Positions 556-23,149 of a stretch of DNA of 56,272 bases are shown here, piece by piece. Below the pieces are notes generated by a model. It ran no database searches. It worked only from the letters and a program-made list of their open reading frames with translations, and was not told where the DNA came from. The position numbers and the translations under genes are program-made. Source of the stretch: Clostridium sp. AM58-1XD (GTDB taxonomy: Bacteria > Bacillota > Clostridia > Lachnospirales > Lachnospiraceae); the NCBI RefSeq assembly GCF_003464085.1, contig NZ_QSDR01000029.1, forward strand, positions 1 through 56,272, written 5' to 3'. How positions within the stretch are numbered: the stretch's first letter is position 1; each line of letters opens with the position of its first letter.

Positions 556-1402
556 ATGGCACTTACATTATTTACAAATGAACAGGTAGAAGATTTCAGA
601 CAGTATTTAATTAATGAGGAGAGGGCGGAATTAACGGTTGAAAAGTACTTACGGGATATCCGGGAGTTCCATATGCATTTGTCCTGCAATACAGAAGTGA
701 CAAAAGAGAAGGTGGTTGCTTATAAAAAGAGTTTATACGAAAAGTATAAAGCAACAAGTGCCAACAGTATGCTTGTAGCATTAAATCAATACTTTGCCTT
801 TTTAAATCGTGCTGATTTAAAGGTTAAGCTCTTTAAAGTCCAGTCAAACTTATTTCGTGAAAGAAATAAAGAGTTGACGGTAAAGGAATATAAAAAATTA
901 GTACAGACGGCAGAAAAACGCAAAAATAAGCGCCTGAGCTATTGATTCAGACGATTTGCAGCACGGGAATCCGAGTGAGTGAACATAAGTATGTTACGGT
1001 GGATTCAATCAGAACCGGAAAAATTCGAATTATAAATAAAGGAAAAGAGAGGGTGGTGCTTCTGACGAAAGATTTGATAAAAGGATTGAAGCTCTATTGT
1101 AAAAGCATGGGCATTACTTCCGGTCCGATATTTATAACCAGAAATGGAAGCCCGGTCAACCGCTCCAATATATGGGCAGAAATGAAGTCGCTCTGCGAAG
1201 CTGCAGGCGTGGAACCGAATAAGGTATTTCCACATAATCTGCGCCATTTATTTGCGTTGACCTATTACCGGGTTGAAAAAGATATTGTACGACTGGCAGA
1301 TATTCTGGGACATGCCAGTATTGAAACAACAAGAATATATACGTTAACCACGCTGAGGACTGTATTCACACACTCTCACGCCTAAATCTGCTTTTGATCT
1401 GA
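556..1402 (+). pseudogene. Tyrosine recombinase (integrase), frameshifted
   Basis: A site-specific recombinase of the phage-integrase family, about 280 residues if the frames are joined. The N-terminal core-binding (SAM-like) domain starts at ATG 556 behind AGGAG and runs to a stop at 943-945. The catalytic domain continues in another frame from about 940 with the family residues in order: the arginine in STGIRVSEH, HNLRH, and LGHASIETTRIY with the tyrosine. A second shift near 1350 moves the true C-terminus (AEDCIHTLSRLN) into a third frame ending at 1402. The gene ends 2 bases before a 21-bp inverted repeat at 1404, so it is the natural candidate to invert the adjacent segment. Either it is dead, or the two single-base shifts are sequencing indels. 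The family call is firm and activity is open. Confidence 0.8.
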
Positions 1403-1403
1403 C

Positions 1404-1636
1404 ACAACATAATCTGTATTATGTGATGTGCTGATCATAAAGATACAGCATTTTATAGTTACTGTTTATCATAGATCAGTATTTAAAATTTTTTTTAATT
1501 ACCTTGATTATCATATTTTTTAATAGTCCGCTCTTTAAATACCATATCTTTTCGTATATTTACGGATCAAATCATACGAGTTATTGTTGAAATTCCCACT
1601 TAAATCATTATTACGACATAATACAGATTATGTTGT
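1404..1636. repeat. Putative invertible switch with 21-bp inverted repeats
   Basis: Positions 1404-1424 and 1616-1636 are perfect 21-bp inverted copies of each other. Each is internally near-palindromic (ACATAAT-CTGT-ATTATGT). They bracket 191 bases of AT-rich DNA that holds no gene. The left copy begins two bases after the tyrosine recombinase and the right copy ends 15 bases before the c-di-GMP riboswitch. This layout matches known phase-variable promoter switches such as the one in front of cwpV in Clostridioides difficile, which also uses repeats of about 21 bp. I infer that inversion connects or disconnects a promoter with the downstream surface operon. No inversion is visible in one assembly. 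Confidence 0.75.
1452..1570 (-). promoter_or_regulatory. Candidate promoters inside the switch, minus strand
   Basis: Two promoter-like pairs lie on the minus strand inside the inverted-repeat segment. One is TTGATC (1565-1570 complement) with an 18-base spacer and TATGGT (1541-1546 complement). The other is CTGATC (1474-1479 complement) with a 16-base spacer and TATAAA (1452-1457 complement). I find no comparable pair on the plus strand of the segment. If either is the operon promoter, the present orientation points away from the operon (OFF). The matches are modest. Confidence 0.35.
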
Positions 1637-1650
1637 AAACAACGGAATAA

Positions 1651-1731
1651 ATTTGGCAAATCTATTAAAAGATAGAGACGCAAAGCTACAGGGGCTTCTC
1701 CTCCAAATGGAGGAATGCCAGCCAGCCGCAT
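1651..1731 (+). ncRNA. Cyclic di-GMP-I (GEMM-I) riboswitch aptamer
   Basis: The segment carries the hallmarks of the GEMM-I aptamer. A GGCAAA opening precedes a short stem TCTAT/ATAGA closed by an A-rich loop (1661-1676). The signature GAGACGCAAAGC follows at 1675-1686, then CAGGGGC. A second stem (TCCTCC 1699-1704, GGAGGA 1709-1714) follows, and the conserved 3' part ATGCCAGCCAG at 1716-1726 closes the basal GGC/GCC helix. It stands 160 bases upstream of the first gene of the SipW/camelysin operon. Members of this class bind c-di-GMP and control biofilm, motility and surface genes. Confidence 0.85.
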
Positions 1732-1777
1732 TTTTTTGCTGGCATTGAGGTTGTGAACGCAGATGCCAGTTTTGTTT
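1714..1777 (+). terminator. Riboswitch expression platform (terminator/antiterminator)
   Basis: Two mutually exclusive pairings are visible. AATGCCAGC (1714-1722), part of the aptamer 3' side, is a perfect 9-base complement of GCTGGCATT (1738-1746). CTGGCAT (1739-1745) can instead pair with ATGCCAG (1763-1769), and that hairpin is followed by TTTTGTTT (1770-1777). Folding of the aptamer with c-di-GMP should sequester 1714-1722 and let the terminator form, giving an OFF switch. The sequence shows the pairings. The polarity is inferred. Confidence 0.6.
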
Positions 1778-1894
1778 GCCCTGTACGCGACATGGGAGAC
1801 GGCTGAGGAAAAATTCCGTAATCAGTGAAAGACACTGAGATATGAAGCTGGTGATGTGCTTCTCCTTACTATTATGAGAAAGCGTGGTACGAAT

Positions 1895-2243
1895 ATGGAA
1901 CAGAGTGCATTGCTGAAACAGATTGCAAAACAGTCTGGATATGAGATCGATATTGTGGAAAGGGTATATTGTGCGTTGATATCAGTTATGAGTGATGCCA
2001 TGGGAAAAGGAGAAAAGGTTGTGTGTATGCCTGAATGGGGCCGCTTTATCCTAAGCTTAGGGATAATACAGGACGAAATGAAAATTCTCCCCGGAGTATG
2101 AAGAAGCCCCACTATTATATTCAGTTTAAGCCGAGCAGCAGCTTGAAGAGGCAATGTTTTCGGCAGAGGATGCGACGAAATTACAAGATTTCGAAACGCA
2201 TGCTATTTTGCAGTATCAGGAGGACAGGAACGATGAATCATAA
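1895..2243 (+). pseudogene. HU-family DNA-binding protein, frameshifted
   Basis: Joined over three frames this encodes about 115 residues resembling HU/IHF proteins. An N-terminal helical part (ALLKQIAKQSGYEIDIVERV, then KGEKVV) leads to the beta-arm region (YPKLRDNTGRN, HYYIQFKPSSSL) and an acidic C-terminus (LEEAMFSAEDATKLQDFE) ending with TAA at 2241-2243. The frame changes near 2045 and near 2140. The last frame overlaps the sipW start by 11 bases, which suggests translational coupling in the intact gene. As first gene behind the riboswitch it may have been an operon regulator or nucleoid protein. It may be a true pseudogene or carry assembly indels. Confidence 0.6.
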
Positions 2244-2874
2244 AAGAAAACGAACGTATCCGTCTGTTGCCGGTATTGTGATGTGCATCCTCTTTATTCC
2301 TATTATCGTAGTAAATACCATATTGATTGTCAGTACATATACAAGGCCGGATGAAATGCCCGGAGTATTTGGAATAAAACCTGCCATCGTGCTTTCAGGA
2401 TCTATGGAACCTGTAATTAAGACAGGGGATTTGATCTTTATTCATAAAACAGATACGGAGAATCTGAAGGAGGGTGACGTGATTTGCTATCTCACGTCAG
2501 GAAAGGCGGTTACTCACCGCATATCCGGTATTACGGCAGGCGAAGATGGGACGCCGCGGTTTATTACAAAGGGCGACGCGAATAATACGGAAGACCGCCT
2601 GCCTGTTACTGCAGGTCAGATTGAAGGAATCTGGAAAGAAGGAAGAATCGCTGGACTCGGCAATATCATTTTGTTTATGCAGTCCTCAAAAGGGATGATT
2701 ATTTTCATTATATGTCCGCTGCTGCTCTTTATTTTGGGGGATATCGTAAGGCGATGGAAGCTGGATCGGGCAGAAAACTCCAGGGTGGCGGAGCTGGAGG
2801 CGGAACTTGCGGAACTGAAAGCGGCCGGCCATGATGAAAAGGCCGAATACTCGCAGGAAGCGAACAACATATGA
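2233..2874 (+). CDS. sipW: SipW-type signal peptidase I (first copy)
   Basis: A 213-residue membrane signal peptidase of the S26B (ER/SipW-like) type. The start at ATG 2233 has AGGAGG at 2218-2223; the open frame extends upstream but that part belongs to the HU gene. An N-terminal membrane segment (about residues 12-34) precedes the catalytic serine in LSGSMEPVIKTGDLI. The second catalytic residue is the histidine in KAVTHRI rather than the lysine of ordinary bacterial enzymes. A C-terminal membrane segment leads into a short charged coiled coil (RVAELEAELAELKAA). SipW enzymes process TasA/camelysin-type fibre proteins outside the membrane. Such a substrate follows directly at 2985. Confidence 0.9.
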   Translation: MNHKRKRTYPSVAGIVMCILFIPIIVVNTILIVSTYTRPDEMPGVFGIKPAIVLSGSMEPVIKTGDLIFIHKTDTENLKEGDVICYLTSGKAVTHRISGITAGEDGTPRFITKGDANNTEDRLPVTAGQIEGIWKEGRIAGLGNIILFMQSSKGMIIFIICPLLLFILGDIVRRWKLDRAENSRVAELEAELAELKAAGHDEKAEYSQEANNI

Positions 2875-2984: not shown

Positions 2985-3569
2985 ATGAAAGGAAAATCTT
3001 ATGCAGCCCGTCTTGGGGGCCTGGCGCTGGCGCTGACATTCATAACGACCTGTCTGATGGGCGGAACGCTGGCCAGATACACCACGGAGGTTACGGGAAC
3101 AGGATCTGCTACGGTGGCGAAATGGAGCTTTAAAGCGAACGAACAGACAGCGACTTTTACGGATATTGATCTTGCCAGTACGGCGTATACGAATATAGAT
3201 AAGGCTGGAGGTAATAAAATAGCTCCCGGTACAGATGGAAGTTTTTATATTGAGATTGATGGCTCAGGAAGCGAAGTGGCTATTGATTATACAATCGCTT
3301 TTTCTGAATTATCTAACAAACCGGCGAATTTAAAGTTCTATTCAGATTCTGGATACAGTACTGAAATAGCAGATTTGACAGCATATCAAGACCTGAAGGG
3401 CGAAATTGCCGTAGATGATCTTGCAACACCAGTTAAAAAGATGATTTACTGGAAATGGGATTATGGAACTGCTGTTAAAGACGTCGGACCTGAATCAGGC
3501 AAGGAAAAAATGACATTCACGATTACAGTAACAGGTACACAGAAGGAACCGGCAAGACCGGCAACGTAA
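2985..3569 (+). CDS. Camelysin/TasA-like SipW-dependent surface protein 1
   Basis: A 194-residue exported protein. The start at 2985 has GAGGG about 9 bases upstream. A signal peptide with a hydrophobic core (LALALTFITTCLMGGTLA) is followed by the ARYTTEVTGTGSATVAKW region that typifies SipW-dependent proteins of Clostridia. The rest is predicted beta-rich and threonine/aspartate-rich with no catalytic motif. By family, it should be processed by SipW and assemble into extracellular fibres or coat the wall. It sits 110 bases after sipW, and a long hairpin follows it, which could limit downstream transcription and make this the most abundant product. Confidence 0.8.
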   Translation: MKGKSYAARLGGLALALTFITTCLMGGTLARYTTEVTGTGSATVAKWSFKANEQTATFTDIDLASTAYTNIDKAGGNKIAPGTDGSFYIEIDGSGSEVAIDYTIAFSELSNKPANLKFYSDSGYSTEIADLTAYQDLKGEIAVDDLATPVKKMIYWKWDYGTAVKDVGPESGKEKMTFTITVTGTQKEPARPAT

Positions 3570-3708: not shown

Positions 3709-5073
3709 ATGCCACAGAAACGCAGATACATACCTTTCCATAGATCAAAAGAAGACAGAGAAGAAAGACGGAGGAGATTCCGCCTTTTCCTCTTGCTGCT
3801 GTTTGTGCTTGTATTTATTACATCCTGCGTGGCAGGGCTTGTTCTGAACAAACATGCAGAGCGGCAGGTTCCAGAGCAGATCGTCGATTCTATTTTGCTA
3901 ACGCCTGAAAAAGCAGAGAAGGCTGCCAGAACCAGAGTGCATTTTACCGGCCGTGTCATTTATTCCAATGGTTTGCCTGCGGCAGGGAGGATGATAGAAC
4001 TGCACAGCAATCCGATGATCACGGTCACAGACTCAGACGGCCGTTTCCTGTTTCCGAACGTCCCCATTGGAGAACATGAAATTTTGATTCTTGAAGAGGA
4101 TGGTTCGACAGCCGCGCAGCGTAAAATTGCAATATCGCAAAAAGATGTGGAGGATGGTATTACAATTTCCCATCAGGATACGGGAGATTACGATATTACG
4201 GTTGCAGTTGATATCAGGGTGCTGGAAATCGTGGTTGAATTAAGCGACAATCAGCTGACAATTGTAGAGGGAAATCAAACATACGCAAGTGAAGAAGGGT
4301 GGATTTCGACTCCTTTTGGCCGCGTTTCTGTATCAGAAGGAGTGGTAGTAACGCCTGAAGGTAATATCCATCTGCAGGATGGCACCATCGTAATTCCAGG
4401 AAGCGGAAAAGACGGAACCGCAGCAGTAATATTGCCAGATGATACAGTCATTTATCCGGAAAAAGAAATGGTTGCAAAAGATTATACGATTCAGCCGGAC
4501 GGAACGGTAACGTTACCAGACGGTACAAAAATTCAGCCGGACGGAGCTGTTGCAGCCCCGGACGGAAATCTGCATATACCAGGTGAGAGCGGTATCGTCG
4601 CTGACGGAAAAGATATTTATCCAATAGGAGGGACAAAAGAAGAAAGTAACAGGCCGGGTTCGCCGGAAGAGGATGAATCACAGTCTTCTGTAAGCGATAC
4701 CCCTGCGGGTAATAGGGAAGCCGGCGGTACAGCGGCACAGCCTGGCCACAGCGCTTCTGAAGACCATAATAGTTCTGTGCCGCCTGAAGTTACGGATGAT
4801 ACACAATCCCCAAGCTATGGAAATGGGCCGTCGCAGCCGGACGGCAGTATAAAAAACGAGAGTGGAAGCAGCCATGATGGCGGCGGCGCTCACGGAGGCG
4901 GCAGCAGCGGAGGCAATAACAGGCCCGGAACAGAAACGGAGACAGAAACGGAAACGGAGACAGAAACGGAGACAGAAACGGAAACGGAGACAGAAACAGA
5001 GACGGAAACAGAAACGGAGTCGGAGACAGAAACAGAGACAGAAACGGAAAGTGATACAGATAACGGTAACTAA
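3709..5073 (+). CDS. Membrane-anchored repeat protein with Thr-Glu tail
   Basis: A 454-residue reading frame with AAAGGAGG at 3691-3698. A basic cytoplasmic N-terminus (about 1-24) and one membrane segment (about 25-47) put the rest outside. Residues about 75-127 resemble a carboxypeptidase-regulatory/SdrB-type beta domain (HFTGRVIYSNGLPAAGRMIE to PNVPIGEHEILI). Then come short repeats around PDGT (IQPDGTVTLPDG, IQPDGAVAAPDG), a Ser/Gly/Pro-rich linker and a run of about 18 Thr-Glu units. The frame ends DTDNGN, and a frameshift near 5066 probably separates it from its true C-terminal domain at 5070-5519. Role unknown. Its place between SipW genes suggests an anchor or minor fibre component. 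Confidence 0.65.
   Translation: MPQKRRYIPFHRSKEDREERRRRFRLFLLLLFVLVFITSCVAGLVLNKHAERQVPEQIVDSILLTPEKAEKAARTRVHFTGRVIYSNGLPAAGRMIELHSNPMITVTDSDGRFLFPNVPIGEHEILILEEDGSTAAQRKIAISQKDVEDGITISHQDTGDYDITVAVDIRVLEIVVELSDNQLTIVEGNQTYASEEGWISTPFGRVSVSEGVVVTPEGNIHLQDGTIVIPGSGKDGTAAVILPDDTVIYPEKEMVAKDYTIQPDGTVTLPDGTKIQPDGAVAAPDGNLHIPGESGIVADGKDIYPIGGTKEESNRPGSPEEDESQSSVSDTPAGNREAGGTAAQPGHSASEDHNSSVPPEVTDDTQSPSYGNGPSQPDGSIKNESGSSHDGGGAHGGGSSGGNNRPGTETETETETETETETETETETETETETETESETETETETESDTDNGN
4930..5049 (+). repeat. GARACV hexanucleotide microsatellite
   Basis: About 20 tandem near-identical hexamers (mix of ACAGAA, ACGGAG, ACGGAA, ACAGAG) encode the Thr-Glu stalk, broken only by a Ser-Glu. Slippage here would add or remove two residues at a time without changing frame. 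The frameshift to the downstream domain lies just after it. Confidence 0.85.
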
Positions 5074-5526: not shown

Positions 5527-6039
5527 ATGAAAATGTTAAAAAGTTTATTGAAATATGTGTTATATGCTGTTGTTTTAGCCGTTTTATTTATTGATATATG
5601 GCGGATGGTATCGCGGTTTTTATTCAATAATGAGCTTCCGTTCCTTTTTGGATACTCCCATGTTACCGTACTTTCGGGAAGTATGGAACCGGCTTTTTCG
5701 ACAGGAGACCTGTTGATTATTCACCGTGAAAATGAATACCGGACAGGAGATGTCATCACCTTTTGGGAAAGCGGGAATCTGGTCACTCATCGTATAATAG
5801 AAAAGAAGCCGGACGGAGATGAAGTCATCACAAAAGGCGATTTTAATAACGTACCGGATAACAGTCCGGTGGGGATCACTCAGATAGCCGGCCGCGTGGT
5901 ATGGGTTATTTCCGGACTTGGGAAATTTATCCTTTTTATACGAACGCCTTTTGGCCTCCTGCTGGTTATGGCAGCCGGGGCTATGGCACTATTTTTACCG
6001 GATTGGATCAGTAATTTAAAAGACCAGGAAGGGCGGTAA
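5527..6039 (+). CDS. SipW-type signal peptidase I (second copy)
   Basis: A 170-residue signal peptidase, again S26B type. The start at ATG 5527 follows GAGGAG at 5508-5513 with a longish spacing; ATG 5533 is an alternative. A membrane segment (about residues 8-24) is followed by the serine in VLSGSMEPAFSTGDLLIIH and the histidine in NLVTHRII. ITKGDFNNVPD and a C-terminal membrane segment complete the fold. A second peptidase in one operon, next to two further camelysin-like genes, suggests substrate specialisation between the two copies. Confidence 0.88.
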   Translation: MKMLKSLLKYVLYAVVLAVLFIDIWRMVSRFLFNNELPFLFGYSHVTVLSGSMEPAFSTGDLLIIHRENEYRTGDVITFWESGNLVTHRIIEKKPDGDEVITKGDFNNVPDNSPVGITQIAGRVVWVISGLGKFILFIRTPFGLLLVMAAGAMALFLPDWISNLKDQEGR

Positions 6040-6102
6040 CGGCTCGAAAGCGGAATATTTTGTTGTCATATGCTATTTTATTGGAAGGAGGAGACGGTCA
6101 AA

Positions 6103-6666
6103 ATGAAAAAACATCTGACAAAAACCAGAATGGCATGTTATATTTTACTGCTCGGCACGTTCTGTCTGCTGCTTCCTGTTACATATGCCCGGTACGCAGC
6201 TCAGGTTAAGGGAGAGGCTGCCGCAAGTATAGCCGCATGGGGATCCGACAGCAGCGATTTTACGATTGACGTTAGCGGACTATATCCCGGTAAAACACAG
6301 GACTATCAGTTCGCCGTAACAAATAAAAAGGGAGACAGGGTCAGCGAGGTTAGCCAGAAGTATTCGATTACGGTAGACACGACAGGTAACCTACCCCTGA
6401 AATTCCAGATAGATGCAGGTTCCGGACTGCCGTCGGGCAGCCTGGTCAATACGGGGGAGCTGGCGGTTACGGCAGGAAAGGCCCGGACAGAGGGAGGATT
6501 TCTGCCCCATTCATCAGAAACTGTCCACAATTACGTATTAAAAGTCTCATGGCCGGAAGGAAATGATAATAACAGTTCAGATTATGCGGATGAGATCGAT
6601 TTGGTCACTGTGACTGTGAATGCGGAACAGGCAGAGCCGGAAGAGCCGGCAAAGCCGGCCGGATAA
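6103..6666 (+). CDS. Camelysin/TasA-like SipW-dependent protein 2
   Basis: An exported protein of about 187 residues. I chose ATG 6103 because AAGGAGGAGA lies 8-15 bases upstream; the frame is open from 6070. The signal peptide (CYILLLGTFCLLLPVTYA) is followed by RYAAQVKGEAAASIAAW, the same post-signal pattern as protein 1. The mature part is beta-rich with a conserved GLYPGKTQDYQFAVTN segment and a Glu/Pro/Ala-rich end (EPEEPAKPAG). It probably forms part of the same fibre or coat. Confidence 0.72.
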   Translation: MKKHLTKTRMACYILLLGTFCLLLPVTYARYAAQVKGEAAASIAAWGSDSSDFTIDVSGLYPGKTQDYQFAVTNKKGDRVSEVSQKYSITVDTTGNLPLKFQIDAGSGLPSGSLVNTGELAVTAGKARTEGGFLPHSSETVHNYVLKVSWPEGNDNNSSDYADEIDLVTVTVNAEQAEPEEPAKPAG

Positions 6667-6684
6667 AATATGGAGGCAGATAAC

Positions 6685-7416
6685 ATGGGAGCAAATAGAA
6701 ACAGACGTAAAAAGACTGTTATTGCAGTCAGTCTTTCAATAATCATTCTGCTTTCTTTCGCAGGTGTGACCGCGGCTCGCTATATGATGGAAAAATATCA
6801 AAGCGGAATTATGGCGGCACAGGAATTTTACTTTACAAGTGATCTTTTAAAGGAAGAAAATGAAAAAGCAGAGTATTATATAGATCCACAGAAAGGAACT
6901 TTTACGGTTAATTTATATAATTATGCCGATTCAATCAGAACAACGCCGGAAAATATAAAGTATCAAATCACTGTGAGCGGCGGAACCGCGGCCACAGACA
7001 GTGGCGCGGGTACGCTGGCAGGAAATGTGCAGAGCAAAGCGAAGATTACAGTTTCGTCTACAGGGGATACCGTAACGGTTACGGCAATATCGGAGGCACC
7101 TTATAACAAAACGCTGACTGCAACTTTTATAAAGGGGCGGGGCAATCAGTATGAGATTAAGGATGAGAAAGACAGTTTGGCGGCCGTGCTGGTTCTGACC
7201 TGTGCTGATTCGGAAAAAGATATAAAAATCACATTGCCGGATGGAGTGATTCCGGATGCGGCAAATGACCAGGCTAAGGCATATAAAGGCAATATATGTA
7301 CCTATCATTCTCAGGGACAGGGCGTATATTCCCTTGTTCTTTTGAAAACAGACTCTTCGATCACGCTTTCAGGAAGCGGTTCATTTGCAGACAGTCTTGA
7401 AATCAGCAGGAATTAG
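6685..7416 (+). CDS. SipW-dependent-type exported protein 3
   Basis: About 243 residues from ATG 6685, chosen because GGAGG at 6672-6676 is 8 bases upstream. A basic N-terminus and hydrophobic core (VIAVSLSIIILLSFAGVTAA) precede RYMMEKYQSGIMAAQEFYFT, a variant of the SipW-dependent pattern. The mature part is Thr/Ser-rich with predicted beta strands and no catalytic motif. It is the third probable substrate of the operon and directly precedes the giant adhesin. It could be a fibre tip or adaptor. Confidence 0.65.
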   Translation: MGANRNRRKKTVIAVSLSIIILLSFAGVTAARYMMEKYQSGIMAAQEFYFTSDLLKEENEKAEYYIDPQKGTFTVNLYNYADSIRTTPENIKYQITVSGGTAATDSGAGTLAGNVQSKAKITVSSTGDTVTVTAISEAPYNKTLTATFIKGRGNQYEIKDEKDSLAAVLVLTCADSEKDIKITLPDGVIPDAANDQAKAYKGNICTYHSQGQGVYSLVLLKTDSSITLSGSGSFADSLEISRN

Positions 7417-7464: not shown

Positions 7465-10335
7465 ATGAATATAAGTGAACGAAAAAAGGCTAACAGGCAT
7501 AAGAACGACAGACGGCGGTGGGCGGCGGCTCTCCTGATTCTTTGCTTAATGATGAGCAGTCTGAATTTCGAATTTATGCTCGCTTATGCGACCGAAGACA
7601 GTGTCCGGACGTTTTATGTGGGAGATGATGTAAAGGCTATAATTGTGGACGGAGTCCTGAAAATTAAGGGCAGCGGCGATACATATGACTTTACGGAAGA
7701 GACGGCTCCGTTCTTGGAGTATGGCGATGAGATCGATTCTCTGGTCATTGAAAACGGAGTTACATATGTCGGTTCCTATCTTTTCTATGGACTTGGAAAC
7801 CTGAGGGGAGAACTGAGGCTTCCGGAAAGTATCGTCGGATTTGGCGATTATGCGTTTTCCGGTAGAGATAAGTACAGTGCGCCCCGATTCTCCATGATTA
7901 TCAATGAATTTATAGAAGGGGAAATCGTGGAAGATGGCTCCAAGGAATCCGGAGATATCGCCGTTTCCACACCGTCCGAAGCTGTGGTAGAAACGATTGA
8001 CTCCGAAGGTGAGTATGATGGCATAGGAAAGCCGGAGGATATCAGCTCTTCCCGGGAGCCGGAGACAGAAAAAAGAACGGAAGAGGCAGCAGAAGAAAAT
8101 CCGGAAACCGAACCAGGGCAAGAGACGGAAGAGGAGGCTATTCAACAGCCGCAGGCAAAAATCGAACGCCATATGGTACCTGTCGTAGGGGAAGCCCCAG
8201 GAGTAGAGCAAGAGGAGAGCGGTTCGGGAAAAGAAACATCAAACAGCGGTTCCGTACATGATACGGCAGGACAGACGGGAAGCAGTTCGGAAAATACCGG
8301 GCAGAATACCGAGCAGAAGGCCGGAGAAAAGACTGAAACAGAAAAAACAGAGGACCAGGCCGGGGCTGAGAAAGGAGAAACAGCAGGCAAGGATGAGGTT
8401 TCCGGAGAAGAGGAGAATAAAGACTCTTTGCCGCCGGCTGATGAAAACAATGAATCGGACGGCACAGGCGGCTTGGACAGCACAGTTATTTCGGATAATA
8501 CGGATCATTCAGACAAAGAAGAAAATACAGAGTCTGCAGAGTCTATGGAAAATGCAGACGGTATAGAAAAAGATGAGAAACCGTCTGCTGCAGGCGGAGT
8601 CCCAGACGGGGCTTTTGACAGCGGTTCCGGTGGAGGAGCAGATGCTTCAAAATCAGAAGAAGACGAGGAGATTCCGGACGATATTGAATATGATGTAGAA
8701 TACATTATCGAGCAGAAAATCGAGAATCCGGAGACACTTTTCTATGAAGGGCAGACCGGCCTTATGATCTGCTCGGAAGACAACGGATCTTTTATTGAGG
8801 CTGGGGAATATGCAGGGTACGAGCTGGCGGACGGCTTTATGACGGTGACTCTGGATGAGATGGTGGATATGGAGCTGCCTGTACGGGACGGCCGGATCTG
8901 TCTTCCGGAATGCCCAAAAGAGCTGGTATATCCGGAGGAGGATGAAGGCATGTTCAGCCGCCGGTTTGCAGGATGGTCGTCAGAACAGGATGGATCCGCT
9001 CCGGTACAGGAGGCAGGAGAATTCATGGATGTAATGGAGGGTGACCAACTGAACCTGTATTCCGTTTGGGAAACTGCTGGAAATTATGAATTCTGTATTG
9101 AAAAGGACCGGGAAGGGGATATCGCAGTCTATACCCTGACTGACAACATTACGGGGGAAGTACCGGAATATTCAGATGGTTACATGTTTTTATATCAGTG
9201 GCAGCTGTCTGAACAGGAAAAACCTCATGATGACAGACCGGCCGGAGAGCTGAATGACCGTCCGGTCAGGACTCCGTCCGAGGTTTATAGCGGGAATTTT
9301 GGAGAGGATGACGGATGGGAGGACATCCAGGGAGCGGATGCTCCGGTATACCGTCGCCATGTAGAGCCGGAGGGCGTTTCCAGACAGGTCCGGTGTGTGA
9401 TAACAGCAGTAAAGGTAACCCGCGCCCGTTCAACCGAAGGGCAGATTACCATGTTGTCAGAACAGGTTACCGCCCTGTCGGAGCTAAAAACGGTTTATGT
9501 TGACCAGCAAATTGGAGATGATGCAAAAGACGGAGCTGGCGCCGATCCTGGCAATCCGGTTCAAACGATGGAAAAAGCGGCGGAGCTTTTAAGCGAAAGC
9601 GGTACGGTCGAAGATAATAAAATTATCCTTTTGAGCGGTTATACAATGAAGACAGCAGCGGAGGGAGAGTTTTTAAAAAACACTCCAAGAAATGTTACAG
9701 TCAGAGGAAATACCGGCTCGGAAACGTTTTCGATAGAAAAAGGAAGTAATGGTGAATTACTGCCGTTTACATTATATGGAGACGTTACCTTTGAGAATAT
9801 GACCCTTGGCTTGCAGCACATATATGGAAACGGGCATAATATTAAATTAGGAACGAATGTCAAGACATCAATACGTCCGTATTTGTATGGGGCGGGTAAT
9901 AATAACATGTCGGATAAAGTCGGAAGCATAGAGGTATTAAGCGGAAGCATCGTCAGAATTAACGGGTATCTAAGATCAAATAGTGATGTCGATGCGGACA
10001 ATAAACTGGCTGCTATAACGGTAGGTGGTACGGCAATTGTGGACACGATTATCGCAGGGAGCGCCAACGGAAAGCTTTCAAACGGTAATGTGGTCATTAA
10101 CGTCAAAGGAGGTCAGGTAGGTTATGTGGTCGGAGGCTGCCAGGGTCATCAGAATACGCCGGCTCCATATTCAGGAACGACAACGATAAATATATCGGGC
10201 GGAAAGGTCACTTCGATATACGGGGCCGGATCGGGCAGAGTCAGCAGTATTCCAACCTTCTGTGGCACGTTGAATATCAATGTTGCCGGAGGAGATGTAG
10301 ATAATATTTATGGCTCCGGTTCGGCGGCTATATAA
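7465..10335 (+). CDS. Giant surface adhesin, N-terminal fragment
   Basis: 956 residues. A basic N-terminus and hydrophobic core with a plausible cleavage after AYA (about residue 42) mark export. Next comes a BspA-type leucine-rich element (NGVTYVGSYLFYGLGNLRGE to LPESIVGFGDYAFSG). A long acidic Glu/Ser/Gly linker with no fixed fold follows (about 140-410), then an InlB-repeat-like stretch around RRFAGWSSEQDG. From about residue 675 (VYVDQQIGDD) a beta-helix begins with turns such as NVKGGQVGYVVGG and NISGGKVTSIYGAGSG. The frame stops at 10333-10335, but the same repeat pattern continues immediately in another frame, so this is the first part of one gene of about 2280 codons. Confidence 0.75.
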   Translation: MNISERKKANRHKNDRRRWAAALLILCLMMSSLNFEFMLAYATEDSVRTFYVGDDVKAIIVDGVLKIKGSGDTYDFTEETAPFLEYGDEIDSLVIENGVTYVGSYLFYGLGNLRGELRLPESIVGFGDYAFSGRDKYSAPRFSMIINEFIEGEIVEDGSKESGDIAVSTPSEAVVETIDSEGEYDGIGKPEDISSSREPETEKRTEEAAEENPETEPGQETEEEAIQQPQAKIERHMVPVVGEAPGVEQEESGSGKETSNSGSVHDTAGQTGSSSENTGQNTEQKAGEKTETEKTEDQAGAEKGETAGKDEVSGEEENKDSLPPADENNESDGTGGLDSTVISDNTDHSDKEENTESAESMENADGIEKDEKPSAAGGVPDGAFDSGSGGGADASKSEEDEEIPDDIEYDVEYIIEQKIENPETLFYEGQTGLMICSEDNGSFIEAGEYAGYELADGFMTVTLDEMVDMELPVRDGRICLPECPKELVYPEEDEGMFSRRFAGWSSEQDGSAPVQEAGEFMDVMEGDQLNLYSVWETAGNYEFCIEKDREGDIAVYTLTDNITGEVPEYSDGYMFLYQWQLSEQEKPHDDRPAGELNDRPVRTPSEVYSGNFGEDDGWEDIQGADAPVYRRHVEPEGVSRQVRCVITAVKVTRARSTEGQITMLSEQVTALSELKTVYVDQQIGDDAKDGAGADPGNPVQTMEKAAELLSESGTVEDNKIILLSGYTMKTAAEGEFLKNTPRNVTVRGNTGSETFSIEKGSNGELLPFTLYGDVTFENMTLGLQHIYGNGHNIKLGTNVKTSIRPYLYGAGNNNMSDKVGSIEVLSGSIVRINGYLRSNSDVDADNKLAAITVGGTAIVDTIIAGSANGKLSNGNVVINVKGGQVGYVVGGCQGHQNTPAPYSGTTTINISGGKVTSIYGAGSGRVSSIPTFCGTLNINVAGGDVDNIYGSGSAAI

Positions 10336-13300
10336 TGGAATGTGCGGACGGAACGCCGTCTCAGGTAAACATAAAGGCTTCAGGCGGTAAAATCGGAAAT
10401 ATATTCGCAGCCGGAAAAGGCGGGGACGGCGCCATGACTTTCACGCTGACTCCTGCGGCAGGAAAGCCCGAAAACATGGGGAGTCTGACCGGAAATGCAG
10501 AGATCAGTATCGGCGGATCGGCCTACGTAACAGGCAGTATTTATGCGAGCGGAGAAGGGTATTCTCCCGATGGGATCACATATGATACAACGAAAAATGC
10601 GTATTCAAAGGGAAATATTTCGATTAATGTTGAGGGCGGAACGATAGATGGGAATGTCTACGGAGGCGGAAAAGGAATTGCCAAGGAAGGATATGAGGAA
10701 TGTGCCCGTGTAGAATCAGGTTCTAAGGTCTTGATCGACCTTTCCGGCGGAACCGTAAAGGGAAACGTCTACGGCGGCGGAGAACGCGCCGAGGTGGAAG
10801 GTTCTACTTCCGTCATGATCTCTGCAGGCTCTGTGAACGACTGCGTTTACGGCGGTGGCGAGAACGCGGGAGTAAAAGGCTCCGCCTCAGTTGTTATAAC
10901 AGGAGGCATGATAGAGCACAAAGTCTATGGAGGCGGTAAAGAAGGATTAGTGCAAAATAAGACCAATGTCAGCATTACGGGAGGTACAGTAAACGGCTCT
11001 GTCTATGGCGGGGCATACGGCAAAGCAGGCGACCGCTTTGTTCTGGGCGGTTCGACAATTAATATGAGCGGCGGATGGGTGAAAGGAAACCTGTACGGAG
11101 GCAGCGAACTGAGTGATGACGGACCGTCCTCAGGAAGTCCTCAGGATTTGATTTTTGTCAATTTAACGGGAGGAACGGTCGGCGGCAGGGTGTTCGGAGG
11201 CGGCTATCAGGGAAAGGTAAACGGTTCTACCCATGTACATATAGGAACTGGGGCGATCGGCAAGTGTAAATATTACAGCGGTCATAAAGGTGAAATGCCC
11301 AGTCTGAATGCAGCAAAACTGTCTATCGGAAATTCTGTATACGCCGGAGGTGATTATGGCGACGGCGCGAGTTATGATACCGTTACAATAACAGGCTTTT
11401 CCCATGTCTACGTTGATGGAACCGGGTATGATTTCGGAAAAAATTCCAGCTTGAGCATGGATATAGCAGGAGGTGTCTTTGGCAGCGGCGCTTCCTGTGA
11501 TGCAGGAGATAAACGTATGGTTACGCTGGATAACTTCGGCGTAAAAAAAGAAGATGATGTGGGAAAAACGATAGGGGCGGGAACGACTCTTACATCGATT
11601 CAGCGGGCGGATCAGGTGCGATTGATCAATTCTCATGTACGGCTTTCGGGACAATCAGACCTGGCAAATGCGAATCAGACGGCGCTGTACTCCTTGAACA
11701 GGATTGGAGATGAGGGGACGAAGCAGGAACTGGGCAAGGTAGGGAACGGTCTGGCATTGGAAAACGGCAGTACACTGGTGCTCGATTCTGCGGTAAATGA
11801 AGTGGCAAATTACAAAAGTGTGGATAAAAATGAAGATGAGGTGGCACCTGAAGATCTTTCAAAATACCCAAACACGATCATTCTTGCTACAGGAACGGTA
11901 TTACAGATTTCTTTGAAAGAAAACTCGAAAGTAACATACGGCGCGGTATCAGGCTATTCTTATATTATGGCAGATGACAAGGCGACCGCCTATGCCTATG
12001 CCCGCATAAAGGAAGGGGAGGGAGCTGGCGACGGCGGTTTTTTCCTACAGGGTGAGTCGAAGGAACTGGACTATACGAATGTGACAGGCCAGGGATTCCG
12101 CTATTGGAAGATCGGGGATGACAAGGCAATTGCAGTCCGAGATACTGTATTGACTGCTCAGAAGCTTACGACCGCACCTTCCGACGGATTTTCACTGGCG
12201 GAAGGCGCAATAACTTTGCTCCCGGCAGAAAAGGATTCTACGTATAGGATCAATAATATTACAATTCCAGATGGAATCACCCTCATAGAAGGGGCAAAAA
12301 GAGGGGACGGCACATGGACTTCGGCTGATACGGGACAGGTAAAGGATACGGAAAAAACGAGAATCAGTGACAGCCCGCTAAATACATTTGGCCTGTATAT
12401 TGAAACGAGCACAGGATTTTCTCCCGGCACCGGGAACGTAATATCAATGAATACGGTAAAACCGGATGATAAAAATACGATCATCGGCAAATCGGCCGAC
12501 AGTCAGAAAGGCATCGTTCCGGAAATTAAGTTTTATCTTACATACGCCAACGATGGGATCACCCAAAGCAGGGATTTAGGCACAGTGAATGCCGAGATAT
12601 TAAGATACGAAGGCAGTACAGTAAAAGAAACAATGCAATTAAATATAGAAATCGTAACAAAAGCGACGGACCTGGAAGCACAAAGCGTGGATCTCTATGC
12701 GACCCAGAGCGGTAGTTATGCGGGAAGACTGAAGATTCCGGCTGGTTCCGGCAGGACGATTAGCCTTACCGGAGTAACGAAGGAATTTGACACGGGAACG
12801 TCTCTTGTACCGTATCACCCTTCCAATCCTTCTGAAAGCCTTACCGGCCATCAGATTTCTGTGACCATGGAACCATCGGAAAAACAGCAGTGGAAGAGCG
12901 AAGGGCTGATGGAAGGCGTTTATGATTTAAGCGAATTTTCTGATGAGAGCAAGATTTTGATTGGATCGACTGACAGCAGATTTGAAGCTTCTATCGATTT
13001 CACCCTGTATAATACTTCCAATTTTGCATCTCAGGAACAAAATGATAAAATCATTTTGAATCTCCAGGATGAGTCAGGAGTGTCGGTACCGATCACGCTG
13101 GAAATTCATTGGAAAAAATCAATCGTATCAGAGATAAAGACAGGAGCAGGGAAATACTATCATACGCCCGCCGGAGGAGGCATAACGGAAGTTTCACAGG
13201 GAAGTTCTGTTACATCCGCTTACTCGCTGGATGGCCAGGCCGCTGCCGGAGAACTGTGGCTGGAACTGCAGAGACAGGACGATAAGACGACGCTGGCAAT

Positions 13301-13559
13301 TCCAAAAGGAACGAAAATAACGATGATTTACGGCAGTAAGTACTATATTTACCGGGTAAAGGCAATGAGGCGAATTATAGAATTCTGCTGTCCGAATTTA
13401 AGGAGATGTGGACAGAGAACGGGCTTACGGGCCAGGTCAGCGGATCATTTACAACGATTGTGGATTTTGATTCTTCAGACGGACTTACGGCAGATATGTA
13501 CAGCCTTCACCTGCGGAATGAAAAGGGAGCCGATTCTCTGGGAGCCGACTTTACTGTAA
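10335..13559 (+). CDS. Giant surface adhesin, middle fragment
   Basis: The continuation after a one-base shift near 10330. It holds at least ten beta-helix turns of the form GGTVxGxVYGGG, for example ISGGTVKGNVYGGGERA-like units and TGGMIEHKVYGGGKEG. Beta-rich non-repeat domains follow from about 11600. The authentic sequence leaves this frame near 13346, where one T appears to be missing; the last 70 residues of the reading frame (from about RVKAMRRIIEF) are therefore spurious. There is no independent ribosome site at 10335. Stacked GG-x-V-YGGG turns are typical of long adhesins that stand out from the cell surface. Confidence 0.7.
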   Translation: MECADGTPSQVNIKASGGKIGNIFAAGKGGDGAMTFTLTPAAGKPENMGSLTGNAEISIGGSAYVTGSIYASGEGYSPDGITYDTTKNAYSKGNISINVEGGTIDGNVYGGGKGIAKEGYEECARVESGSKVLIDLSGGTVKGNVYGGGERAEVEGSTSVMISAGSVNDCVYGGGENAGVKGSASVVITGGMIEHKVYGGGKEGLVQNKTNVSITGGTVNGSVYGGAYGKAGDRFVLGGSTINMSGGWVKGNLYGGSELSDDGPSSGSPQDLIFVNLTGGTVGGRVFGGGYQGKVNGSTHVHIGTGAIGKCKYYSGHKGEMPSLNAAKLSIGNSVYAGGDYGDGASYDTVTITGFSHVYVDGTGYDFGKNSSLSMDIAGGVFGSGASCDAGDKRMVTLDNFGVKKEDDVGKTIGAGTTLTSIQRADQVRLINSHVRLSGQSDLANANQTALYSLNRIGDEGTKQELGKVGNGLALENGSTLVLDSAVNEVANYKSVDKNEDEVAPEDLSKYPNTIILATGTVLQISLKENSKVTYGAVSGYSYIMADDKATAYAYARIKEGEGAGDGGFFLQGESKELDYTNVTGQGFRYWKIGDDKAIAVRDTVLTAQKLTTAPSDGFSLAEGAITLLPAEKDSTYRINNITIPDGITLIEGAKRGDGTWTSADTGQVKDTEKTRISDSPLNTFGLYIETSTGFSPGTGNVISMNTVKPDDKNTIIGKSADSQKGIVPEIKFYLTYANDGITQSRDLGTVNAEILRYEGSTVKETMQLNIEIVTKATDLEAQSVDLYATQSGSYAGRLKIPAGSGRTISLTGVTKEFDTGTSLVPYHPSNPSESLTGHQISVTMEPSEKQQWKSEGLMEGVYDLSEFSDESKILIGSTDSRFEASIDFTLYNTSNFASQEQNDKIILNLQDESGVSVPITLEIHWKKSIVSEIKTGAGKYYHTPAGGGITEVSQGSSVTSAYSLDGQAAAGELWLELQRQDDKTTLAIPKGTKITMIYGSKYYIYRVKAMRRIIEFCCPNLRRCGQRTGLRARSADHLQRLWILILQTDLRQICTAFTCGMKREPILWEPTLL

Positions 13560-14308
13560 ACGGTTCCGCAGCAAGCGTGGCGCTGGGTGGGGGAGACGGC
13601 CTTTCGCGTGGGAAACACCAGTTCCATTTCAATATCAATGCCATGTCGGATACGCGTCTGGCGGACGGAGCAGCAATTGTTCTGTCTCCCGGAACAGGAG
13701 GTGATATCCCTGAAGGAACTGTGTTTACATACGGAGGAATAAAGTATTATCCTGTCAACGGACGCGTTTATATTCCTGTTGAGAATTACAATAGCGGTCA
13801 GATCGTAACGATGGACACTGGTAATACTGCCGGTCTAATGGTAGGAGAGAACAGGATGTCCGTACGGCTGTTTTCAAAGGGGATCAATGCAGGCGGCTCA
13901 GAAATTGATTCGGCGGAGACCGTTTATACTGTAACGGCAAATCCGGCATACAGTCTTAAAGTTCATCTTTCTGAAGGAGGAAGCCGCGTAGTGCCGCCGG
14001 GAGCAGGGATGGTATTTGACGTGGAATACTCCATTGTAAATGGAACAGGAGCCGATAACGTTATCGGGATACAGGTTTATAGAAAGGACGCCGGCATATA
14101 TGATAATCCGGAACCAGACGGAGCATGGCCGGTGAGCGGAAATGGAAAGTTAACTGCCGGAACCGGCAGTCATCGTATTTCAGTATCCGTCCCCGAATCT
14201 GCTGTTCCGGGAACGTACCGGCTTGTATTTGAACTGGGCGGCCAAAAAGTTCCTTATAATATCATTGTCCGGGAATCTGAACATATAAAAGAAAAAGATG
14301 GAGTTTAA
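13349..14308 (+). CDS. Giant surface adhesin, C-terminal fragment
   Basis: The authentic frame resumes at 13349 with LPGKGNEANYRILLSEFKEM. The first ATG is 13406, inside that sequence. About 320 residues of Ig-like or beta-sandwich character follow (GSFTTIVDFDSSDG, YSLKVHLSEGGSRVVPPGAG, PGTYRLVFELGGQKV). The protein ends KEKDGV with no LPxTG motif, no membrane segment and no SLH or cell-wall-binding repeat. If the C-terminus is complete, it is held on the surface non-covalently, perhaps by the fibre proteins of the same operon. Confidence 0.65.
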   Translation, partial: LPGKGNEANYRILLSEFKEMWTENGLTGQVSGSFTTIVDFDSSDGLTADMYSLHLRNEKGADSLGADFTVNGSAASVALGGGDGLSRGKHQFHFNINAMSDTRLADGAAIVLSPGTGGDIPEGTVFTYGGIKYYPVNGRVYIPVENYNSGQIVTMDTGNTAGLMVGENRMSVRLFSKGINAGGSEIDSAETVYTVTANPAYSLKVHLSEGGSRVVPPGAGMVFDVEYSIVNGTGADNVIGIQVYRKDAGIYDNPEPDGAWPVSGNGKLTAGTGSHRISVSVPESAVPGTYRLVFELGGQKVPYNIIVRESEHIKEKDGV

Positions 14309-15106: not shown

Positions 15107-17452
15107 ATGTATAATATTGATTACAGCAGGAAGAGAGATCCGATGACCGGACTGTGGTCGGAGGAGTGGGTCAGCAAAAAAATAGAAGATTATCTGAATT
15201 CGGAAGAAGAGAGCGGAAGCGCCGCATTCTGTCTGATGGAGGCGCCCTTACCGGATCAGGGATACGAAATCAAAGATGGGAATTCCATGCTGAAGAAGTT
15301 TGCGTTTGTACTTCAGCAGACGATGAGAAAATCAGATTTTGCAGCAAGGGTCGGAGAACATCATTTTATAATTTTCATCATGGGCTGCAAGGGGCGCAGG
15401 GATGCGCTTGAAAGGCTGCTGTTTTTCAGGAAGAACATGAAAGAGGAAGGAATCGGGAACAGCTGTATATTTCAGGCGGGGATTGTTCTGTGCAGCAGCT
15501 TATGCCATCCGAAGTGTTCTTATGAGGAACTGCTTAATAAAGCAAAGGGAGCGCTGCAGCGCTCCCGAGGGGAAGAAGGCGGATTCTATGCAGTTCCCTG
15601 GGATACAACGTTTAACAGGGATGAAACTGGATGGGAGTTGGAACCTGCAGGCGAATACAGGATTTCGAGAAAAGACGCCGATATGGATTTTGTTGGCGAG
15701 ATAATGGAAGGCTTTCAGCACGCTGAATCCTTCCAAAATGAGATAGAGAGGGATCTGGAACGCCTTGGTTCCTATTACGGTGTCGACGAGGCATATATCG
15801 TAGAAAGAACAGCTGGGGAAAGAGGATATGAGATTACTTACGAATGGAAGAAAAACAAAGGCCGTGTTGAAAATAATAATCTAAAGAGAGTTCCTGGTAT
15901 TATCGGGGAGAGATATGGCAGGCAGTTTGACAGCCGGGGCATGATTATATGTACTTGTATGGAAGCTCTGGAGGAGCTGGATCCTGTCATGGCAGAACGG
16001 CAGAAGCTCAGAGGGACGAGATCGATGATGCAGAACGCAGTTCTGGAATCAGGCACCTATATCGGTTATATCGGAATTGCGGACGGAAGCAGGGAACGGC
16101 TGTGGACGGACGGAGAAATCATGACATTTTCCATGGTCAGCATGATTATTTCATCCTATCTGCTCCAGCTGCGGGCGAAGCGTTCATTGGAGATTATAAC
16201 GGATTACGACCTGCTTACGGCTGCATGGAATTATAATCGTTTTTTGGTTCTGGGGAGTGAAAAGCTGGTTAGCGACGGCGTACCTAAGGCAGTTGTTACG
16301 GTAGACATTAAAAATTTCAAGATGATTAATTCCCAGTATGGTTATGAAAAGGGGAATGAAGTCCTTGTAGAGATCAGCAACCTCCTGAATTTCTTTACGG
16401 CAGGCAGCGAATGTTACGCCAGAATCGAGGCGGACAAATTCGTTCTTCTGTTGGAATACCAGATGCTGGACGGGCTTCAGCAGCGCTTAAAACAGCTGAT
16501 CCGCCGTGTGGAACAGATTCCGGAACAAAAGCTGGGGGTATCCGTTACATGCATGGTAGGCGTATGCCTGGTGGAACAGGGGGACAGTGATTTATCAGTC
16601 CTTGTAGACCATGCGAATATGGCAAGAAAATCATTGAAGGACTATCACAAAAGCGTATACAGTTTTTACAACAAAGAGGCGGAGCAGAAGCTGATCAAGG
16701 AAAGAGAACTGACGGCCCGTATGAAGGGAGCGGTGGAAAAAGAGGAATTTGTAGTTTATTACCAGCCGAAATTCAGCCTGAAGGCCAGGAAGATCATTGG
16801 AATGGAGGCTCTCGTCCGATGGAAAACAGGGGTGAATAGCCTGGTGCCACCGGATGAATTTATTCCTCTCTTTGAAAAAAACGGGTTTATTACGGAATTG
16901 GACCGGTATGTTTTTGAACGTGTATGCAGGCTCCAGAGAAGATGGATGGATGAGGGGCGGACCGTGCTGCCTGTAAGCGTCAATGTTTCCAGAATCCATA
17001 TCAAGGAAGCTGATTTTCTCACAAAGCTGACGGATATCTGCGGAAAATATGAAATTCCGGCGAAAAATCTGGAACTGGAAATTACAGAGAGCGCGTTCCT
17101 GCATAATCAGGAGATTGTAATGGCCGTGGCCAGGCAGATTAAAGATGCAGGCTTTCTTCTTTCCATGGATGATTTCGGAACGGGATACTCATCACTCAGC
17201 CTGCTGAAAGATCTTCCGGTGGATATTATTAAACTGGATAAGGAATTTTTTCAGAAAAAACTAAATAAGAGGGAGCGAATTATAATCGCAAATGTCATTC
17301 GAATGGCAAAGCAGCTGGATATACAGGTGATTTCAGAGGGAATTGAAACAAAGGAGAATGAACAGTTTCTGAAGGAAATCGGCTGCAATCTGGCGCAGGG
17401 ATATCTGTACGGCAGGCCGCAGCCGATCGAGGAACTTGAAACGAAGCTATAG
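15107..17452 (+). CDS. GAF/pseudo-GGDEF/EAL c-di-GMP phosphodiesterase
   Basis: A soluble 781-residue multidomain protein. An N-terminal GGDEF-like fold (RDPMTGLW near residue 10) has VGEHH at 82-86 in place of GGDEF and should not make c-di-GMP. A GAF-like region follows (about 200-370). A second degenerate GGDEF domain has RIEADKF at 439-445. The C-terminal EAL domain looks active: EALVRW at 567, SVNVS, ELEITES, DDFGTGYSS at 688, KLDKEF, SEGIET and QGYLYGRP. The predicted reaction is hydrolysis of c-di-GMP to pGpG. Lying inside the chemosensory operon, it is a likely output or feedback component rather than a housekeeping enzyme. Confidence 0.88.
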   Translation: MYNIDYSRKRDPMTGLWSEEWVSKKIEDYLNSEEESGSAAFCLMEAPLPDQGYEIKDGNSMLKKFAFVLQQTMRKSDFAARVGEHHFIIFIMGCKGRRDALERLLFFRKNMKEEGIGNSCIFQAGIVLCSSLCHPKCSYEELLNKAKGALQRSRGEEGGFYAVPWDTTFNRDETGWELEPAGEYRISRKDADMDFVGEIMEGFQHAESFQNEIERDLERLGSYYGVDEAYIVERTAGERGYEITYEWKKNKGRVENNNLKRVPGIIGERYGRQFDSRGMIICTCMEALEELDPVMAERQKLRGTRSMMQNAVLESGTYIGYIGIADGSRERLWTDGEIMTFSMVSMIISSYLLQLRAKRSLEIITDYDLLTAAWNYNRFLVLGSEKLVSDGVPKAVVTVDIKNFKMINSQYGYEKGNEVLVEISNLLNFFTAGSECYARIEADKFVLLLEYQMLDGLQQRLKQLIRRVEQIPEQKLGVSVTCMVGVCLVEQGDSDLSVLVDHANMARKSLKDYHKSVYSFYNKEAEQKLIKERELTARMKGAVEKEEFVVYYQPKFSLKARKIIGMEALVRWKTGVNSLVPPDEFIPLFEKNGFITELDRYVFERVCRLQRRWMDEGRTVLPVSVNVSRIHIKEADFLTKLTDICGKYEIPAKNLELEITESAFLHNQEIVMAVARQIKDAGFLLSMDDFGTGYSSLSLLKDLPVDIIKLDKEFFQKKLNKRERIIIANVIRMAKQLDIQVISEGIETKENEQFLKEIGCNLAQGYLYGRPQPIEELETKL

Positions 17453-17773: not shown

Positions 17774-18590
17774 GTGATCAAATTTGACGAAGAAGAATTT
17801 TCGGAGTTTGTACAGTACATAAACGAAAAATACGGAATTGATCTGTCGAAGAAAAAAAATACTGGTTGAATGCCGTCTGAATGGCAATATAAGAAAACAG
17901 AATATTACTTCTTTAAGGGAATTTCTTTATATGATGAAAGGGGACAGATCGGGCCGTCTGGAAAACGAAGTGCTCAATAAACTGACGACAAATTATACGT
18001 ATTTTGTAAGAGAAAGCAAGCATTTCGAATATCTGGAACGTGAAATTCTCCCGTCATATCAGGCGGATCGGATGGAACGGCTTTCAATCTGGTGCGGAGG
18101 ATGCTCCAGCGGAGAGGAATGTTATACGCTGTCCATGCTCCTGCACAGCTATGTGAGAAAGGGAGGGAGTCTGCCGGAGTTTCAGATACTGGGAACGGAT
18201 ATATCGGAAAATTCCTTAAAAAAGGCCAGGGAAGCCAGGTACTCCATCAATGAACTGAAACGGATACCGGATGAGTGGCAGAGGGAATATTTGGATGTGG
18301 ATTATAAAAATGAATGGTTTGAAGTACGGTCTGCGATCAGGAAAGAAGTTGCTTTCTGCAGGATGAATCTGATGAAGCCGTTTGCAGGCCAGAGGCAGTA
18401 TGATATCATTTTCTGCCGAAATGTTATGATTTATTTTGACGAGGGATCCAGGAAGAAGCTGCTGAAACGTCTTTACGGATGTCTGAAGCCTGGAGGTTAC
18501 TTATTTTTAGGCCATGCGGAGCTGCTGTACAGAGACAACGATCTGTTTCAGTACGTATGCCCTGCTGTTTATCAAAAAACAGGAAAATAA
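17774..18590 (+). pseudogene. cheR: Chemoreceptor methyltransferase CheR, frameshifted in A-tract
   Basis: CheR adds methyl groups from S-adenosylmethionine to receptor glutamates. GTG 17774 with GGAGG 8 bases upstream starts IKFDEEEFSEFVQYINEKYG, the N-terminal CheR helix region. The frame breaks in a run of eight A at about 17853, and the rest (KILVECRLNG onward) is in the next frame to 18590. With seven A the protein is continuous. The methyltransferase domain is complete: NYTYFVRES, IWCGGCSSGEECYTLSMLL (SAM site), LGTDISENSL, FCRNVMIYFD and FLGHAEL. A homopolymer indel in an otherwise intact gene suggests a sequencing error, but a real frameshift cannot be excluded. Confidence 0.85.
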
Positions 18591-18592
18591 TA

Positions 18593-19602: not shown

Positions 19603-19603
19603 A

Positions 19604-19969: not shown

Positions 19970-19973
19970 TTAT

Positions 19974-21043: not shown

Positions 21044-21091
21044 AAACAGCAGGAAAATTCAGATATGTGATATGAGGAAAAGGAGAAAGAC

Positions 21092-23133: not shown

Positions 23134-23149
23134 TGCCGGAGGGAAAATA

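Follow-up and report, generated by a model that had tools for sequence, protein, structure and literature searches.

A SipW-type operon of Clostridium sp. AM58-1XD behind a predicted promoter-inversion module and a class I c-di-GMP riboswitch

In C. difficile, the recombinase RecV serves several switches and is encoded elsewhere. In the sipW-tasA matrix operon of Bacillus, small proteins that are presumably secreted come after a SipW-type signal peptidase, and control is by other regulators. C. difficile flgB and cmrRST have been described as combining phase variation with c-di-GMP riboswitch control, and the text of PMC8844915 places the riboswitch upstream of the invertible element there. 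As given in the same text, the cmrRST control region contained the cmr switch and a class II c-di-GMP riboswitch of the ON type, located upstream of the invertible DNA and with its own promoter. The flgB leader contained the flagellar switch and the class I OFF riboswitch Cd1, and c-di-GMP can override the phase, according to the texts of PMC8844915 and PMC6366702. Among the riboswitches covered in the text of PMC6366702, those of C. difficile were all OFF switches and Bc2 of B. thuringiensis was an ON switch. A 2025 survey defined an inverton group of Clostridia, group 139, with invertase group 35, for which its text gives read-level flipping and both orientations (PMC11892184). A large proportion of the invertons in group 139 (32 of 33) were in Clostridia, next to a tyrosine recombinase, and one example had 26-bp repeats 205 bp apart; the terms riboswitch, c-di-GMP and signal peptidase do not occur in the main text of that survey.

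The window analysed here is the whole 56,272-bp stretch of contig NZ_QSDR01000029.1 of Clostridium sp. AM58-1XD. A tyrosine recombinase gene, two inverted repeats, a c-di-GMP-I riboswitch aptamer and an operon for a SipW-type signal peptidase and presumed fibre proteins were found in succession on its + strand. Judged by its anatomy, the window locus is a real member of a widespread, predicted promoter-inversion family in an unusual series arrangement, and group 139 and this family probably belong to the same clan. The first-pass annotation had suggested that such two-layer control may be undescribed. This was correct for the order of the parts only, since phase variation with a c-di-GMP riboswitch is known already and what is new here is the riboswitch downstream of the invertible DNA. 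The upstream position of the riboswitch seen at C. difficile flg and cmr was not found in the window, where the aptamer lies 8 bp downstream of the right repeat. As far as the text of PMC8844915 describes it, cmrRST has a class II, ON riboswitch in parallel control, whereas the window has a class I riboswitch, predicted OFF, downstream of the switch and in series control. The flgB leader resembles the window in joining a class I OFF riboswitch (predicted in the window) to site-specific inversion, but its riboswitch comes before the invertible DNA, whose effect is on mRNA read-through (Rho) and does not involve a flipped promoter, in the texts of PMC8844915 and PMC6366702. The C. difficile pdcB switch is similar in being an invertible promoter linked to c-di-GMP; it controls a phosphodiesterase, and no leader riboswitch is mentioned in the available text of PMC9286219. 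The analogy with cwpV drawn in the first-pass annotation was imprecise because cwpV acts by an orientation-dependent terminator, as described in the text of PMC8844915.

The locus is likely to be a self-contained promoter-inversion module, comprising recombinase, site, segment and inverted site, followed in series by a class I c-di-GMP riboswitch as the control of a SipW-dependent surface-fibre operon. Crossover by the adjacent recombinase would take place within the 4-bp centres of two ACATAAT-N4-ATTATGT sites and flip the segment between them. In the ON orientation, a sigma-A promoter lying within the segment, a few tens of bp from a repeat, would fire through the right site into the riboswitch, while in the OFF orientation the same promoter would fire back toward the recombinase. 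In ON cells at low c-di-GMP an antiterminator would form and the operon would be read, whereas at high c-di-GMP the aptamer would be stabilised, the terminator freed and transcription stopped. The position of the riboswitch downstream of the switch implies series logic on one transcript, predicted as ON orientation AND NOT high c-di-GMP. Comparison with related loci left the general mechanism well supported, and the state and function of the window copy not so.

The recombinase (556..1402, + strand) showed a SAM-like N-domain and a catalytic domain (PF02899 and PF00589), and its frame was broken near 940 and near 1353. Homology to intact relatives (L003, L004 and L006) in tblastn fell into two frames, covering 556-939 and 939-1352, and translation by eye showed that the end runs in a third frame to a TGA at 1400-1402, one base ahead of the repeat. 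The earlier placement of the recombinase end 2 bases before the repeat was thus nearly correct, provided that two frame breaks are bridged. The catalytic part was 55-72% identical to homologues adjoining 9 of the 10 paired-site sipW loci described below. Fourteen genomes each contained 1 to 10 copies of the recombinase (E 1e-30 or better). A repeat pair of at least 15 bp was found near the gene in 42 of 46 fetched recombinase loci, some of which are the same place twice and among which the arms differ in more distant copies. No repeat pair of at least 15 bp was found near the recombinase of L107; masked bases concealed any such pair in L097, L115 and L119 in this count, and the L115 pair was seen in the centre-free site search.

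The predicted left recombination site (1404..1424, + strand) has the core ACATAAT-CTGT-ATTATGT at 1407-1424, and the predicted right site (1616..1636, - strand) is its inverted copy, with the centre ACAG complementary to the CTGT of the left site. The two repeats are 21 bp long, 100% complementary and 191 bp apart, so that their coordinates and complementarity bore out the perfect inverted repeats first annotated. No further near-copies (up to 3 mismatches) were found in the window, and 0 were found in 100 shuffles. An inverton's inverted repeats flanking a short segment, here the 191-bp segment expected to invert (1425..1615), were present in the window. Across loci the outer arms were nearly constant and the central 4 bases variable. 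When the centre was unconstrained and no more than 1 mismatch was allowed in the arms, the centres matched exactly in inverted orientation in 40 of 41 pairs of neighbouring sites, although the 41 pairs include close paralogues and are not all independent. The only mismatch was a direct pair spanning a masked stretch of L096. There were 29 distinct centres, and centres matched between loci in 20 of 1640 comparisons. Inverted centres matched in this way are what the crossover sites of a tyrosine recombinase require. The related loci strongly support the view that the repeats behave like recombinase sites, and the adjacent homologue and the matched centres in fixed arms assign the sites to this recombinase at the level of sequence only. 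The matched-centre rule could serve as a simple sequence test to find self-contained switches across gut Clostridia. Three sites, not two, were present in L028 (identical to L089), L092, L095, L124 and L126, and two of the three in L028 were in direct orientation, so that deletion as well as inversion would be possible there. In genome G004 (L004, L095, L102, L108 and L164-L166), 7 of 9 recombinase copies were inspected and carried 7 different central tetranucleotides, as if each switch were privately addressed by its own centre.

A simple sigma-A score was applied 10-60 bp from either repeat, with 300 shuffles per segment and a threshold of p <= 0.05, to 43 of 44 picked segments; L039 was dropped since its segment exceeds 500 bp, and duplicates of counted segments were dropped. 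A promoter was called in 34 of the 43 segments (27 toward the recombinase, 6 away and 1 both), with none in 9, where about 2 calls per side are expected by chance. The six away-pointing segments were L006, L098, L099 and L113 at p <= 0.01 and L085 and L124, which were marginal. The bias toward the recombinase (27 of 33) gave a binomial value of 0.0003, for copies that are non-independent and were counted irrespective of the genes downstream of the paralogues. With sipW behind the segment, 9 pointed toward the recombinase, 2 away and the window neither (binomial 0.065). The window segment was among the 9 misses and contained no promoter above shuffles 10-60 bp from either repeat (p 0.26 and 0.46); the promoter inside the segment, expected of this type of inverton, was thus seen in relatives and not in the window. 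The suggestion that promoters point away from the operon and that the assembly had caught the OFF state could not be upheld on these values. The window copy is the weakest case of its family, having no recognisable promoter and a broken recombinase frame.

Both orientations appear to occur among related genomes and among paralogues, as distinct from cells of one strain. In three loci of the E. sinensis family (L006, L128 and L127), the promoter TTGCAA-17-CATAAT lies 33-39 bp from the core site and the outside flank is 78-81% identical. This promoter faced the riboswitch in L006 and L128 (ON) and away from it in L127 (OFF). The comparison of orientation in related genomes proposed with the first-pass annotation was therefore answered in front of a riboswitch and sipW, at species level and in species other than that of the window. 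Two paralogue sets showed the same, as the segments of L099 and L103 aligned only when inverted (63 against 17), and so did L120 or L123 with L125 (57-58 against 20). The inner alignment of L006 and L112 was no better than shuffles (29 vs a shuffle maximum of 30), and inversion there rests on the promoter element. From these orientations and the matched centres we infer that segments of this family invert. The invertible-promoter reading of the window was accordingly borne out in the behaviour of the sites, the promoters of the relatives and their two orientations, but not in a promoter of the window's own segment.

In a cwpV-like attenuation, transcription from an invariant promoter at the left junction would cross the segment and meet a terminator in one of the two orientations. 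In line with this are a weak + strand match, TTGATC-17-TATTAT, that straddles the left repeat (5 promoter-like sites vs 3.4 expected) and a weak terminator-like hairpin of -8.5 on the assembled + strand vs -1.6 on the other. Terminator-like hairpins were, however, about equally frequent on the two strands of 43 segments (18 and 15), and promoters near one repeat dominate in the relatives; attenuation of this kind was considered improbable. A still smaller chance was given to the repeats being operator sites or a remnant integration site in front of an operon with its own fixed promoter. The weak window match TTCCCA-18-CATAAT, which takes the right repeat as its -10, fits such a promoter, as do three sipW operons (L001, L002 and L009) with a riboswitch and without a repeat pair, which share an upstream TGGCATTGCCA element. 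Against it stand the matched centres of 40 of 41 pairs, the distance of only 8 bp from the right repeat to the aptamer in the window and the presence of both orientations among homologues.

The promoter-inversion reading continues into the leader, where the c-di-GMP-I riboswitch aptamer (1645..1733, + strand) matched RF01051 at 60.4 bits against a cut-off of 35 (E 2.1e-9). This confirmed the riboswitch that had been annotated after the second repeat, and the gap was 8 bp, not 15. A predicted antiterminator (1714..1746, + strand) is formed by the 3' strand of the aptamer (1714-1722), a 9-nt perfect complement of 1738-1746. It overlaps a predicted intrinsic terminator (1738..1778, + strand) with arms at 1738-1745 and 1763-1769, a T-rich tail and a hairpin of -13.9 kcal/mol. 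An OFF switch is expected where such a pairing is in competition with the aptamer, and the window riboswitch looks like the OFF type, with uneven support across tests. The 9-nt complement reached p 0.012 against shuffles, while in a looser duplex-energy test 32 of 200 shuffles were as good for the window, which is not significant, and fewer than 10 of 200 were as good only in L003 (6 of 200). The ligand-free fold of the window leader already prefers the terminator by 2.5 kcal/mol.

Among nine leaders, a 7-9 nt complement to the aptamer was found in 8, with p 0.016-0.14 outside the window; the values were weak in L003 (0.14), L127 (0.12), L128 (0.066) and L006 (0.058). No significant complement was found in L011 (p 0.94), which fits neither pairing mode. 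Downstream in 6 of the 9 loci (L001, L002, L006, L009, L127 and L128) is a stretch of 7-8 nt that can pair with the invariant aptamer core GCAAAGCT, while the window and L003 would use the 3' strand of the aptamer for the alternative pairing instead of this core. A scan detected a hairpin with a T tail in 8 of the 9 leaders; it found none in the leader of L006, and the hairpins of L127, L002 and L011 were poor or oddly placed.

The first gene after the leader codes for an HU-like DNA-binding protein with a broken frame (1856..2160, + strand; PF00216, E 1.8e-5). It is followed by a SipW-type signal peptidase I (2233..2874, + strand), which scored 99.3 bits with TIGR02228 (cut-off 51.85) and thereby confirmed the SipW assignment, and 105 bits with NF046067 (cut-off 190), the Bacillus SipW equivalog; falling below the latter cut-off, it is not Bacillus SipW itself. 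Downstream on the + strand lie a presumed SipW-dependent surface or fibre protein (2985..3569), for which homologues follow sipW in relatives and the structure model is a low-confidence beta-sandwich, and a presumed membrane or surface protein (3709..5073) with homologues in relatives and a CarboxypepD_reg-like domain at 27.2 bits, below the Pfam cut-off of 32.3. A second SipW-type signal peptidase (5527..6039; TIGR02228, 86 bits), two more presumed SipW-dependent proteins with homologues in relatives (6070-6666 and 6670-7416) and a large surface protein (7465..14308) complete the operon. The large surface protein is split over 3 ORFs in the window and is one ORF of 1810-1826 aa in L002, L006 and L008, the loci that include its end. 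No relevant Pfam or NCBIfam family was matched by the presumed fibre proteins at 2985, 6070 and 6670, and the camelysin label was not supported; the layout resembles that of Bacillus sipW-tasA, but no TasA or camelysin family was matched. The fibre role of the operon is presumed from the SipW context and the low-confidence beta-sandwich model.

The window contained four GGDEF proteins, two of them with EAL (15107-17452, 24311-25258, 38510-40264 and 44226-46295). The first of these genes is directly 3' of the fibre operon, and c-di-GMP enzymes thus neighbour the riboswitch. A chemotaxis cluster (17838-27636) contained CheR, CheB, CheC/CheD twice, MCP, CheA and CheW and was followed by a sigma factor gene (27788-28336). 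A B12-dependent ribonucleotide reductase (31499-33841) was full length, with a best match of 83% and nearest named relatives in Blautia sp. at 81%, which makes the contig Lachnospiraceae-like. A fragment at the contig edge (1-240) resembled a transposase C-terminus by eye.

A possibility of lower but appreciable weight is that an ancestral module, functional in relatives, has decayed or become locked in the window, the operon here being silent or fixed. Decay would agree with a segment in which no promoter exceeds shuffles, with the frame breaks in the recombinase (2), the HU-like gene and the large surface protein (10333 and about 13400), and with the finding that, among the best 120 of 7633 matches, no intact recombinase exceeds 67% identity. 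However, CheB, which lies outside the operon, is broken too (19380-19700), a point in favour of assembly indels, and the overall pattern, with breaks in CheB, the HU-like gene and the surface-protein gene and a full-length ribonucleotide reductase, is explained by assembly indels no less well than by decay. Both repeats are still perfect, and the aptamer, the terminator and the two SipW genes are undamaged. The recombinase of L005 also contained a stop.

A scan of genome contigs by SipW alignment gave 513 confirmed relatives, the best 80 of which were kept. An ACATAAT-N4-ATTATGT pair was found upstream of sipW in at least 10 of the 80 (L003, L004, L005, L006, L021, L028, L033, L037, L039 and L041), which is a lower bound because only this core was sought across all 80. 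A recombinase homologue adjoined the site pair in 9 of the 10, and none was found beside the pair of L037. L055, with the recombinase on the other side, and L034 and L035, with one site at a contig edge, were left out of this count. A c-di-GMP-I aptamer was found within about 0.7 kb upstream of sipW in 7 of the 80 (L001, L002, L003, L006, L009, L011 and L025), with a covariance model built in this analysis. Site pair, riboswitch and sipW occurred together in five loci, namely the window, L003 (C. citroniae), L006 (E. sinensis), L127 and L128. The last two are from the E. sinensis family, in which 3 of 138 genomes had a close recombinase. None of the 397 genomes sampled from the G004 family matched a strict site-riboswitch pattern, which is blind to spacing of the L003 type. 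The arrangement thus recurs in the window, C. citroniae and Eggerthella-family genomes, of which the first two belong to the Lachnospiraceae and the last to the Eggerthellaceae. The front end appears to be modular, as some operons have the riboswitch alone and others the switch alone. The palindrome-like TGGCATTGCCA was also found upstream of sipW in L007 and L010, which had no scored aptamer, and several of L001, L002, L007, L009 and L010 additionally carried a GAAGTATTCT element; the two elements possibly form a regulated fixed promoter that replaces the invertible one.

The RF01051 matches of the E. sinensis family loci L006, L128 and L127 scored 47, 45.1 and 58.1 bits. In the genomes of L003, L006, L127 and L128, the aptamer was the sole RF01051 match among the best 150 first-look candidates per genome, while elsewhere there were 4 matches in the genome of L001 and 2 in that of L002. 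GGDEF matches numbered 49 (L003), 36 (L006), 43 (L128) and 43 (L127) per genome. A more elaborate version of the inversion module, a two-tier memory gate, is conceivable but was regarded as doubtful. Private site pairs would be defined by the 4-nt centre, and the OFF-orientation promoter would transcribe antisense into the 3' end of the recombinase, damping it and holding the OFF state, which would explain the 27:6 promoter bias. The ON orientation would feed a c-di-GMP-I OFF riboswitch, and the sole riboswitch found in each of the four stacked relatives' genomes would make one fibre operon the class I target amid some 40 GGDEF domains, in a module shared by Lachnospiraceae and Eggerthellaceae.

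With random switching and second-messenger sensing in series, c-di-GMP could veto the fibres and could never switch them on in OFF cells. Neither the parallel control of cmrRST nor the reversed order of flgB is of this kind, and the predicted sign, with c-di-GMP lowering a surface-fibre operon, opposes the usual rule that it raises adhesion. Among the SipW and recombinase matches, the pairs P0028/P0130, P0010/P0131, P0092/P0209 and P0095/P0228 had the same longest-contig sizes (162113, 7809, 2575 and 4462, respectively), hinting at more linked SipW-recombinase pairs in metagenomes.
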